64,000 bases of DNA from Pelagibacteraceae bacterium AG-426-E17. Its GTDB lineage: Bacteria > Pseudomonadota > Alphaproteobacteria > Pelagibacterales > Pelagibacteraceae. Below the pieces are notes generated by a model. It was not told the DNA's origin. It was given only the letters and a program-made list of their open reading frames with translations, and ran no database searches. This document shows, piece after piece, positions 18,572 to 50,760 of the stretch. Each line of letters opens with the position of its first letter. The stretch's first letter is position 1. Position numbers and translations under genes: made by a program. Location of the stretch: contig QCNP01000001.1 in the NCBI GenBank assembly GCA_003210095.1, positions 170,001 to 234,000 of the forward strand, given 5' to 3'.

Positions 18572-20222
18572 TATCCTCTAAATTGTTTACATTCAATATT
18601 TCTAGGTCTGGAAATACTTCTAATGCTTCTTCATATGTAGAACTTTTTTTCAAATCATCAATATATTTCTTTTCTAAATTTTTATTTTTTTGTTTTATAG
18701 ATTTAAAACCAATCTTTTTTGAAAACATTATAATCCATCTTTTACCAGTCCACTCCAACAATTTTTCAGATATATTTTTAATGAAATTTTTATTTAAGTT
18801 TTCATTAAAAGAAATTTCTATTTTTTTATCTTGGAAACTTACTAGGTTAACATTATTTTCAAGTTCAAATTTTAACTCTATTTCCTTTTTTGTTTTACAT
18901 ATATCAAGCAAATCTTCAAATGATTTTATTTCATGCTTTTTGTTTAATTTTTCATCTTTTATTAGATGATCTTGGACTTCTTGAGTGGAAAACTTGATTT
19001 GATTTACAGCCTGATTAACGTTTTTAGAACTATCATTATTGTTTTCATTTGGAAATTTAGTTTCAATATTGTTGGTATCAATTTTTTTTGGAATTTCCAT
19101 ATAACTAGAATTTTCGTCTTTAATATACATTAATCTTATTAAAAACATCTCGATTGATAAATTTTGATTAGAAACTAAATTAAGCTCTGTCATCGTCTCA
19201 ATAGAAAATTGCCAAAATAATAGTAAGGTTTTACTATCTATTCTTTCAGATAAGGATGATAATCTTGTAATTTCTATATCACCCATATTAAAAGATGAAT
19301 TAAAATTTTTCATGTTACTAAAGTTTTTTAAATAAAAAATAATTTCTAAGAAATTATTTAAAAATATTTTAGGCTCAATACCTTGGCTATAAATATTTCT
19401 ATATGTATCTAGAACATTCGTTTCTTCTCCTTTCAAGATATTCTCAATTAAATCTATAAGGTGAATCTTGTTTAAATATCCAAATATTTTTTGTGCTTGC
19501 TCCAAATTTAATAAGTTGCTATCATTTTTTTGATTTAATAATGCTCTATCAAGCAATGAAAGAGAATCTCTTACGGAACCCTCTGAAATTTTAACTATTA
19601 ACTTAAGAACATTTTCATCAATTTTTCTATCTTCTTTAGATACAATTTTTTTAAGATGGTCAAAAAGTATTTTAGATTGAATTCTCATAAGATCAAATCT
19701 TTGACATCTAGATAGTACTGTAATTGGTATTTTATTAACTTCTGTCGTTGCAAAAATAAATTTTAGATATGAGGGAGGTTCCTCAAGTGTTTTTAAAAGT
19801 GCATTAAATGCCTGCTTGCTAAGCATATGAACTTCATCAATTATAAAAATTTTATATTTAGCAGCAGTAGGTCCATATCTTGAAAAATCAATTAAATCTC
19901 TTACATCGTCTACTCCAGTTTTGCTTGCTGCATCCATTTCAAGTACGTCAATATGCCTTGATTCTGAAATTTCATTACAATTATTACATTTGTTTTCCAA
20001 ACAAGAAAATTCTTTTGAGTTTTCACAATTTAAAGATTTTGCTAAAATTCTTGCAACTGTTGTTTTTCCTACACCTCTTATGCCAGTAAACAAAAAAGCA
20101 TTTGGAATGTTGTTTGTTAAAATTGATTTTTCTATAGTCTCTATAATTATTTCTTGTCCTATAAGGTCTTTGAAAACCTGGGGTCTATATTTTAACGCTA
20201 ATACTTTATTATTTGTGCTCAT
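18564..20222 (-). CDS. dnaX: DNA polymerase III subunit gamma/tau
   Basis: MSTNNKVLALKYRPQVFKDLIGQE, GVGKTT, KIFIIDEVHMLSKQAFNALLKTLEEPP. Start placed at 20222 rather than the track's 20240, which runs into the SRP RNA. Confidence 0.94.
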   Translation of the reverse strand: MSTNNKVLALKYRPQVFKDLIGQEIIIETIEKSILTNNIPNAFLFTGIRGVGKTTVARILAKSLNCENSKEFSCLENKCNNCNEISESRHIDVLEMDAASKTGVDDVRDLIDFSRYGPTAAKYKIFIIDEVHMLSKQAFNALLKTLEEPPSYLKFIFATTEVNKIPITVLSRCQRFDLMRIQSKILFDHLKKIVSKEDRKIDENVLKLIVKISEGSVRDSLSLLDRALLNQKNDSNLLNLEQAQKIFGYLNKIHLIDLIENILKGEETNVLDTYRNIYSQGIEPKIFLNNFLEIIFYLKNFSNMKNFNSSFNMGDIEITRLSSLSERIDSKTLLLFWQFSIETMTELNLVSNQNLSIEMFLIRLMYIKDENSSYMEIPKKIDTNNIETKFPNENNNDSSKNVNQAVNQIKFSTQEVQDHLIKDEKLNKKHEIKSFEDLLDICKTKKEIELKFELENNVNLVSFQDKKIEISFNENLNKNFIKNISEKLLEWTGKRWIIMFSKKIGFKSIKQKNKNLEKKYIDDLKKSSTYEEALEVFPDLEILNVNNLEDND

Positions 20223-20227
20223 CTGTA

Positions 20228-20316
20228 GGAGACCAACCAACCTGGAAAATACTCATTACCCTTGCTCTTTTTCAAGCCTGGGGGAGTTTATGGTAACTCC
20301 ACCTGGTTGGCCCCCA
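20228..20316 (-). ncRNA. ffs: Bacterial signal recognition particle (4.5S-type) RNA
   Basis: RC folds as a long hairpin: GGGGGCCAACCAGG... pairs with ...GGTTGGTCTCC; apical CAGG-CTT-GAAA-AAG-AGCA retains a GNRA tetraloop and the SRP54-binding asymmetric loop pattern. Confidence 0.85.
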
Positions 20317-20363
20317 AATTATTATAACAGTTATATTTTCTAGTCCATAAGAAAAGTTTATTT

Positions 20364-46515: not shown

Positions 46516-46590
46516 TGGTGGCCTTGGTAAGAATCGCACTTACGACACATACCTTTTCAGGGTACTGCTCTACTACTGAGCTACAAGGCC
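46516..46590 (-). tRNA. tRNA-Phe(GAA) with atypical D- and T-loops
   Basis: GGCCTTG TA GCTC AGTAGTA GAGC A GTACC CTGAAAA GGTAT GTGTC GTAAG TGCGATT CTTAC CAAGGCC ACCA; all stems pair. Confidence 0.88.
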
Positions 46591-48091: not shown

Positions 48092-48482
48092 TTTTAATTT
48101 CCTTCAAATCTTCAAGTGTAACTTCTATAATTTCTGAGGATAAGGTTATAAAGCCATTATCTGAAAATAACAAATTAAATTCGTAACCTTTTTTAGTTTT
48201 AATAGTATCGATAGCAAGGAGTGTTAAGCTCTCTTCGATTGAATATTGGTTTATATTTTTAGACTTTGCATTATCAATAAATTCAAATTTACAAATACTT
48301 AGTATTTTTTTCTTATTTTTGGCTTTAATTGAACTTCTCTCTAAAGATAATAGAAAAATCTTGTTTTTTTTTAGAAATTTAATGTCAGAAATTTTTAATT
48401 TAGATTTGTGACAATATAAAGAAATAAGATTTAATCCATTTAAATCTCTTGCTAATATTTTAGCTAAATATTTCTTAGACAT
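48081..48482 (-). CDS. DUF2948 family protein
   Basis: Position between murA and hisD and general sequence character, as in alphaproteobacteria. Confidence 0.65.
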   Translation of the reverse strand: MSKKYLAKILARDLNGLNLISLYCHKSKLKISDIKFLKKNKIFLLSLERSSIKAKNKKKILSICKFEFIDNAKSKNINQYSIEESLTLLAIDTIKTKKGYEFNLLFSDNGFITLSSEIIEVTLEDLKEIKNDS

Positions 48483-49749
48483 TATTTTTTAATTTAATTT
48501 TAATGCCTAATTTTTTTAATTTAGTTGACAAATTTTCATAACCTCTTAAGCCATGATAAATTCTTGAAATTGTTGAAGACCCCTCAGCTGATATTGCTCC
48601 TAGTATTATTGAAAAAGTGGTTCTTAAATCTGAAGAAATACAATCTGCTGATTTCAATTTTTTTTGACCAATAATAAAAGCTTTGTTTTTTTTTATAGAA
48701 ATTTTTGCACCCATTCGCTTTAACTCAGGCACAGCCATAAATCTATTAGAGAATATTGTTTCTTCAATCATACTTTTACCTGGTACCTGAGTTAAAACCG
48801 CAAGTAAAATTGGCATGTTATCTGTTGCAAATTGTGGCCAGGGGCCAGTTTTAATCGATACAGGTTTTAATCTTTTACCGTGTGAAAGTATTATAGAATT
48901 GTGATTCATTACTATTTTATATCCAATTTTTTTTAAGATGTTTAATTCCGCGTTTAAATAATTGGGATTAATATTTTTTACTTTAATCCTTCCATTAGTT
49001 GCAGCTCCTACACATAAATAACTAAAAGCTTCAATTCTGTCACCTATGATAGTATGCTCACCATCTATTAGATCATGAACCCCAATAATTTTTATTGACC
49101 TTTTGCCAATAAATTTTATTTTTGCTCCTGAATTATTTAAAAATTTAATCAAATCTTTTACCTCAGGCTCTATTGATATATTTTTAATTATATGCTCACC
49201 GCTTATTAATACTGAGGCCATTATCAAATTTGAGCTACCTGTAACAGTAACTTTTGGAAATTTGTAAATATTTCCTTTTAATCCATTCTTTGAGTAAATA
49301 TTCACATAACCCTTGCTTAAAGTATTCACAGCACCAAGACTTTTAAATCCTGAAAGATGCCATGATGTATCTCTAATACCAAGTGCACAACCCCCACCTA
49401 AAGCAACTTTAATTTTATTTTTTGGATATCTGGCTAATAGAGGTCCCATTGTCAAAACTCCTGCTCTCATTGTAGAAACTAAATTATAAGGAACAACTAA
49501 TTTATGTCTTTTATTATTTGTGATTTTTATAATTTTTTTTTCTCTTATAAGTTCAACTTTAGCACCCAAAGAAATTAATAGATCTTTCATAGTTAAAACA
49601 TCTTTTACAAAAGGAACATTTTTTAAAATAACTTTTCTTTTAAAAAGTATTGAGGCTGCCATTAAAGGTAGACAAGAATTTTTTGCACCACTAATGTTTA
49701 TTTCACCTTTAACAGCTTTATTAGGGCCATTGATTATATAACTTTTCAT
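48475..49749 (-). CDS. murA: UDP-N-acetylglucosamine 1-carboxyvinyltransferase
   Basis: GEINISGAKNSCLPLMAASIL; GGGCALGIRDTSWHLSG; TGPWPQFATDNMP. Confidence 0.95.
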   Translation of the reverse strand: MKSYIINGPNKAVKGEINISGAKNSCLPLMAASILFKRKVILKNVPFVKDVLTMKDLLISLGAKVELIREKKIIKITNNKRHKLVVPYNLVSTMRAGVLTMGPLLARYPKNKIKVALGGGCALGIRDTSWHLSGFKSLGAVNTLSKGYVNIYSKNGLKGNIYKFPKVTVTGSSNLIMASVLISGEHIIKNISIEPEVKDLIKFLNNSGAKIKFIGKRSIKIIGVHDLIDGEHTIIGDRIEAFSYLCVGAATNGRIKVKNINPNYLNAELNILKKIGYKIVMNHNSIILSHGKRLKPVSIKTGPWPQFATDNMPILLAVLTQVPGKSMIEETIFSNRFMAVPELKRMGAKISIKKNKAFIIGQKKLKSADCISSDLRTTFSIILGAISAEGSSTISRIYHGLRGYENLSTKLKKLGIKIKLKNNV

Positions 49750-50300
49750 TATTTAGATTTTGCAAGAGTAATTCCAACTTGACCTTGGTATTTCCCTTTT
49801 CTATCTGAGTAAGAAACCTCTGGTTGATCTCCTTTAAAAAATAATATTTGTGCAGCACCACTGTTCGCATACAATTTTATAGAATTACTCGTGTGGTTTG
49901 AGAATTCTAAGACTAAATTACCATGCCAACCAGCTTCTAAAACTGTAGGAGGCGTGCCAAGTCCACATCTTGCATAAGTTGATTTTGCAGTAACCAGCCC
50001 TGTAATATTTCTTGGCATTTTGAAATATTCTAGACTACTAGCCAGTGCAAAAGAATTTGGCGGTATGAGTATAAATTCTTCTCCTTTAACTGTAATAAAA
50101 TTATCCTCACTAAAATTTTTTGGATCTGCTGTAGCCCCTTTAATATTAGTGAAGATTTTAAATTCAGAACCACATCTTAAATCATACCCAAACGAATTAA
50201 GACCATGACTTATGCCTTTGGACACACTTTCATTAATAAAAGGGGAGATCATTTCCTCTTCTTCTGACAATTTTATTATTTGCTTATCATTTAGAATCAT
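49749..50300 (-). CDS. dcd: dCTP deaminase
   Basis: SYDLRCGSEFKIF-type motif, TAKSTYARCGL, PTVLEAGWHGNLVLEFSN. Confidence 0.94.
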   Translation of the reverse strand: MILNDKQIIKLSEEEEMISPFINESVSKGISHGLNSFGYDLRCGSEFKIFTNIKGATADPKNFSEDNFITVKGEEFILIPPNSFALASSLEYFKMPRNITGLVTAKSTYARCGLGTPPTVLEAGWHGNLVLEFSNHTSNSIKLYANSGAAQILFFKGDQPEVSYSDRKGKYQGQVGITLAKSK

Positions 50301-50600: not shown

Positions 50601-50685
50601 AAATATTTTTAATTATAATGTAATAAAAAAAAAAATTAAGGCAATAATTTGAAAAATCTAAAGTTTTACACTATTTTAAATATAC

Positions 50686-50760
50686 GCCCTTGTAGTTTTA
50701 GTGTTAAAACAGGCCCTTGGTAAGGGTCAGTCATGAGTTAGATTCTCATCGAGGGCACCA
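50686..50760 (+). tRNA. tRNA-Thr(GGT) with highly atypical D- and T-loops
   Basis: GCCCTTG TA GTTT TAGTGTTA AAAC A GGCCC TTGGTAA GGGTC AGTC ATGAG TTAGATT CTCAT CGAGGGC A CCA; all four stems pair, anticodon arm matches bacterial tRNA-Thr(GGT). Confidence 0.82.

Follow-up and report, generated by a model that had tools for sequence, protein, structure and literature searches.

Probable matched U19-A56 swap in the elbow of a single-copy tRNA-Thr(GGT) from Pelagibacterales

Introduction

In bacterial tRNAs, almost no variation is expected at the bases G18, G19, U55 and C56, and TruB is the synthase of Psi55. Alternative combinations such as G54-G58 were reportedly functional in selected clones of the suppressor tRNAs that the Steinberg laboratory obtained from randomised D and T loops, and a three-pair helix between the two loops is also said to occur in selected suppressor tRNAs. 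The 19-56 pair forms the flat face that is read by RNase P, the L1 stalk of the ribosome and other partners (PMC4810234). In the UGNRA lonepair triloop, a loop G contacts an outside A, which gives a GNRA-like fold (PMC2258182). Our literature search, made in open papers, returned no report of A18-G55 or of a rewired 19-56 pair in SAR11. In the present study, we analysed the elbow of a tRNA-Thr(GGT) encoded in a stretch of 64,000 nucleotides from a Pelagibacteraceae genome (the window), together with related tRNAs of Pelagibacterales.

Results

The tRNA-Thr(GGT) gene with its CCA end is located at 50686..50760 on the + strand, where it was called by ARAGORN as tRNA-Thr(ggt) and matched the Rfam tRNA family (RF00005) with 54.3 bits (gathering 29). 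The 7/4/5/5 bp cloverleaf arms, the GGT anticodon (50719..50721, +; ARAGORN) and the CCA end are all present, as in a member of RF00005, and the secondary-structure model gave the cloverleaf an MFE of -26.7 kcal/mol (z -3.8). The position, the anticodon, the T-loop TTAGATT and the D-loop TAGTGTTA given in the original prediction were thus confirmed by the sequence, ARAGORN and Rfam. The prediction had also raised the question whether this is the only GGT gene; the tRNA search of the genome, which is 99.3% complete, gave 33 matches and no second Thr(GGT) gene among them. In this genome Thr(TGT) is canonical, and ACU and ACC make up about half of the Thr codons of the 53 window ORFs. Judged from its sequence, Thr(GGT) is a single-copy tRNA that would read ACU and ACC and is probably functional.

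The gene is flanked by dcd on one side and by a gene for a VTT-type membrane protein on the other, and hisS, hisD, murA, rnpA and yidC are close to it, these names being taken from reading of the translations and not from a family-library search. The gene and its position are conserved in nearly all loci of relatives. A promoter-like element, TTGAAA-17-TATTTT, was found at 50649..50677 (+) as a consensus match, and its -35 side falls in a block that is conserved between the Thr alleles. In the neighbouring region (window 48475-50300), MurA and Dcd share about 45% and about 53% identity with their counterparts in many other Pelagibacter loci, against about 66% for YidC and about 78% for ArgB, and the murA-dcd pair of this lineage is possibly an old replacement. 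Elsewhere in the genome, at G000:C1:830528-830601 (L039), an additional tRNA of the Met(CAT) type, whose T-stem is mismatched, scores lowest in the genome (44.9 bits) and is possibly a degenerate copy. A match to the small SRP RNA was also observed at window 20221-20318 (-), with 46.9 bits.

The numbering of the loops was derived from a gapless alignment of 8 distinct homologues that share the D-arm GTTTTARTGNYAAAAC. As RNA, the D-loop is UAGUGUUA and the T-loop is UUAGAUU. Since the third base of the D-loop covaries with the last base of the variable loop (G/C in 4 homologues and A/U in 4), it is nucleotide 15 (G at 50701, +), the Levitt partner of C48 (50732, +); the R15-Y48 pair is present in all 8 homologues. 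It follows that the preceding A is A14 and that one U is inserted after nucleotide 13, so the D-loop reads U-A14-G15-U16-G18-U19-U20-A21 (50699..50706, +). The T-loop, placed by the sequence and the cmscan alignment, reads U54 U55 A56 G57 A58 U59 U60 (50738..50744, +; A56 at 50740). The claimed loss of A14 and G15 was an artefact of gapless alignment to a standard D-loop, and the cmscan alignment makes the same misplacement; both bases are in place, with a purine kept at 15. An alignment that takes the elbow bases as fixed will put the loops of such tRNAs out of place. G18 and U55 are invariant in the 8 homologues. The suggestion that the D-arm could close to a 6-bp stem held in part: the energy model favours this form, a point against the reading preferred here, and the sixth pair is broken by C20 in two relatives (L049 and L055).

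The canonical G19-C56 pair is replaced in the window Thr tRNA by U19 (50704, +) and A56. Among the distinct homologues this pair is U-A in 5, G-C in 2 and A-U in 1, with no mismatch. All structure cells of the alignment (192/192) are standard pairs, compared with at most 57% in a control with partners slid, and changes on both sides occur at 19:56, at 15:48 and in the stems, such as alignment columns 49:63, which are C-G or U-A. In a wider count, 18 of 348 Pelagibacterales genomes carry this Thr D-arm, and 19/56 is U/A in 14, G/C in 3, A/U in 1 and mismatched in none; these genomes are not independent events, as the U/A genomes mostly carry one or the other of two near-identical alleles. Because 19:56 was never mismatched in relatives with the same D-arm, the tertiary pair is preserved through compensation. 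The original prediction had proposed this for U19 and A56, and the alignment across SAR11 that it called for shows that the two positions do not vary independently. That only three 19:56 states occur among the homologues counts against the preferred reading. The G/C form carries the T-loop GUCAGUA, in which 54:58 becomes G-G; Thr(GGT) alleles with this T-loop, where G-G replaces U-A, were observed at L036, L193 and L194.

The compensated pairs and stems argue for a folded and selected Thr tRNA, and they bear directly on the idea that the gene is a decaying pseudogene whose ACN codons are all read by Thr(TGT). Such decay would agree with the Rfam score of 54.3 bits, which is below that of most tRNAs of the genome, and with the presence of a U34 tRNA-Thr; it has to face the facts that every stem is paired, with compensatory changes from allele to allele, that the gene has stayed in its place in almost all relatives and that identical copies occur across many species. 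We regard the pseudogene as barely credible, the compensatory stems being the main point against it. A different contact between the loops was also considered, namely a helix of three pairs between UAG or UAA in the D-loop and UUA in the T-loop. UAA and UUA are fully complementary in the A' allele, and the UAG/UUA of the window Thr contains one G-U, but the pairing is broken in the alleles of G228 (UAA with UUU) and G033 (UAA with GUC), where 19:56 and 15:48 stay paired. This double helix was rejected for the family and is very unlikely. The most likely reading of the window Thr(GGT) is that the tRNA works and that its elbow is compensated. On this reading its elbow would be held by the usual contacts: G18-U55, U54-A58, A14 and the 15-48 pair would be retained, and the outermost Watson-Crick tertiary pair would have changed from G19-C56 to U19-A56.

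Unusual elbows were also found in other tRNAs, in line with the earlier suggestion, which had included Phe, that the lineage has an unusual elbow architecture. The tRNA-Phe(GAA) of the window (46516..46590, -; ARAGORN and Rfam) has the D-loop AGTAGTA and the T-loop TGCGATT, with A18 and G55; in the same genome, A18 with G55 also occurs in a Val(GAC) outside the window. This tRNA-Val(GAC) (L037, G000:C1:141252-141323; T-loop AGCGUAA) was observed to combine A18-G55 with an inverted A54/U58, and it is identical in G012. A pattern of A18 in the GCTC D-arm, with nucleotide 55 left free, matched 181 of 348 Pelagibacterales genomes in 3 of 12 genera; among the matches listed, all were Phe with G55 and C56. 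G18 with G55 was found for that D-arm in 0 of 348 Pelagibacterales genomes. The A18 pattern, which covers one D-arm form, was also run against the class sample and matched none of its genomes outside SAR11.

Among 145 distinct tRNA strings, a few of which differ solely by a clipped 3' end, 115 have G18 G19 with U55 C56 and 21 have A18 G19 with G55 C56, the latter in four isoacceptor families (Phe, Val(GAC), Thr and His). A further 7, which carry U19-A56 or A19-U56, are alleles of Thr, and the remaining 2 are canonical tRNAs whose strings were read with a one-base shift. The 18:55 states were never mixed, with A18-G55 in 21 and the other state in 122 of the 145 strings. In the closed genome G012, the deviating elbows are those of Phe, Thr(GGT) and Val(GAC) only. 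In G061, which belongs to another genus and carries TruB, 30 tRNA types were read and all were canonical except His, where the D-loop AGTTAGTTA and the T-loop TGCAACT give A18-G55. In sequence, the Phe, Thr-B and His variants fit the UGNRA pattern (U54 G55 N R57 A58 with an outside A at nucleotide 18), and the Val variant has A54/U58 instead of U54/A58. In these tRNAs, G55-A18 may take the geometry of the UGNRA lonepair triloop. Taken together, the matched swaps in Pelagibacterales would comprise U:A, A:U and G:C at 19:56, G:U and A:G at 18:55, and U:A, A:U and G:G at 54:58. We consider it quite probable that Thr(GGT) is a working single-copy tRNA with one swap, U19-A56, which forms part of these matched elbow swaps.

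Discussion

Loci for the comparison of alleles were found through MurA. The Thr gene alternates between unlike, discrete alleles, and the flanks are more alike within groups. The tRNA identity is 54-57% between A and B and 73% between A' and C, compared with 77-95% for flanks more than 50 bases away, and it is 100% within one allele in the pairs compared. The alleles differ over a block that starts near the -10 region and closes with the CCA end. On a quick tree of flank proteins from 57 loci, with many weak branches, at least 11 changes of state were counted for Thr and at least 5 for Phe, and whole-allele exchange looks like the usual route by which the elbow state changes. We also observed, between close relatives, that Thr(GGT) (window 50686-50760; loci L040-L108) is less conserved than its flanks and occurs as discrete alleles; diversifying selection or an imported cassette is possible.

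If the Thr allele had been imported from a phage or a distant donor, its elbow would reflect the translation system of the donor and not compensation inside SAR11. The discrete alleles in similar flanks (tRNA 54-73% and flanks 77-95% identical) and the state changes on the flank-protein tree agree with such import. On the other hand, the phage collection contained no match for the A' allele, and close forms (G228 and G033) are present inside the same genus. For the B allele, the collection gave only 79% identity, to unannotated records that carry a Listeria phage label, and 90% over 31 bases of a tRNA-Thr from a Ruegeria phage. We consider import unlikely. Somewhat less doubtful, and still tentative, is the proposal that a major SAR11 lineage lost the Psi55 synthase and then rebuilt several tRNA elbows, as A18-G55 of the UGNRA type and as U19-A56 or A19-U56, with the alleles exchanged among close relatives. 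If this is true, the keeping of rebuilt elbows as exchanged alleles would be a sign that tRNA bodies are under diversifying selection.

TruB was not found in the genome of the window by a search that detected 14/14 controls, so Psi55 is not expected in the window Thr tRNA. The family was found in 27 of 128 sampled Pelagibacterales, in 6 of 9 genera; it was missing from the genome of the window and 100 others of this sample, and absent from 3 of the 9 genera. By comparison, among good alphaproteobacterial genomes it occurs in 230 of 236 (~97%), and 2 of the 6 without it are SAR11. The A18-type Phe occurs in the genera g1, g5 and g6, and from the tallies these appear to be the three genera without TruB. 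The elbow variants could then follow directly from TruB loss: in a tRNA lacking Psi55, G18-U55 would be no better than A18-G55, and the pairs would drift. This reading, which falls a little short of an even chance, draws on the overlap of genera and on the finding that TruB is widespread in the class and no GCTC-stem tRNA of the A18 type was found outside SAR11. It is weakened by the fact that the three genera are identified from the tally, and that they would stand for a single event if they form one clade. In addition, the loss is not necessary for A18-G55, which occurs in the His tRNA of the TruB-positive G061, and not sufficient, since in many Pelagibacter that lack TruB the Phe and Thr tRNAs are still canonical; the window Thr itself retains U55. 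A causal link between TruB loss and the elbow variants is thus only suggested. The genus to which the window belongs has no TruB, and this may have made departures from the canonical elbow less costly. The folding, charging and use in translation of Thr(GGT), and the part that TruB loss played, are matters on which we infer from sequence.

These elbow contacts involve bases that are taught as fixed in bacterial tRNAs, and they are exchanged as matched pairs in SAR11 relatives. Natural matched swaps in a TruB-less lineage of a highly abundant bacterial group offer a way to test the need for the elbow contacts and for Psi55. Compared with the type R1 UGNRA lonepair triloop, or T-loop motif, of riboswitches and other RNAs (PMC2258182), the Phe, Thr-B and His variants share U54-G55-C56-R57-A58 and the outside A at nucleotide 18, as in the composite GNRA form, but here the motif would occur in tRNAs; Val differs (A54 and U58), and the window Thr, which keeps U55, is outside this form. 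The window Thr has the same layout as the canonical bacterial elbow (G18-Psi55, G19-C56, U54-A58 and R15-Y48), with 15:48, 18:55 and 54:58 kept, and differs from it by U-A at 19:56, by an extra U before A14 and by the expected lack of Psi55, TruB being missing. Alternative loop combinations are common to the suppressor tRNAs of the Steinberg laboratory and to the SAR11 tRNAs, the latter being natural chromosomal genes with covariation. The published natural, isoacceptor-specific changes of tertiary pairs (15/48 and 54/58) are of the same kind; the pairs described there were reported as unobserved in bacteria, whereas the SAR11 tRNAs change 19:56 and 18:55.
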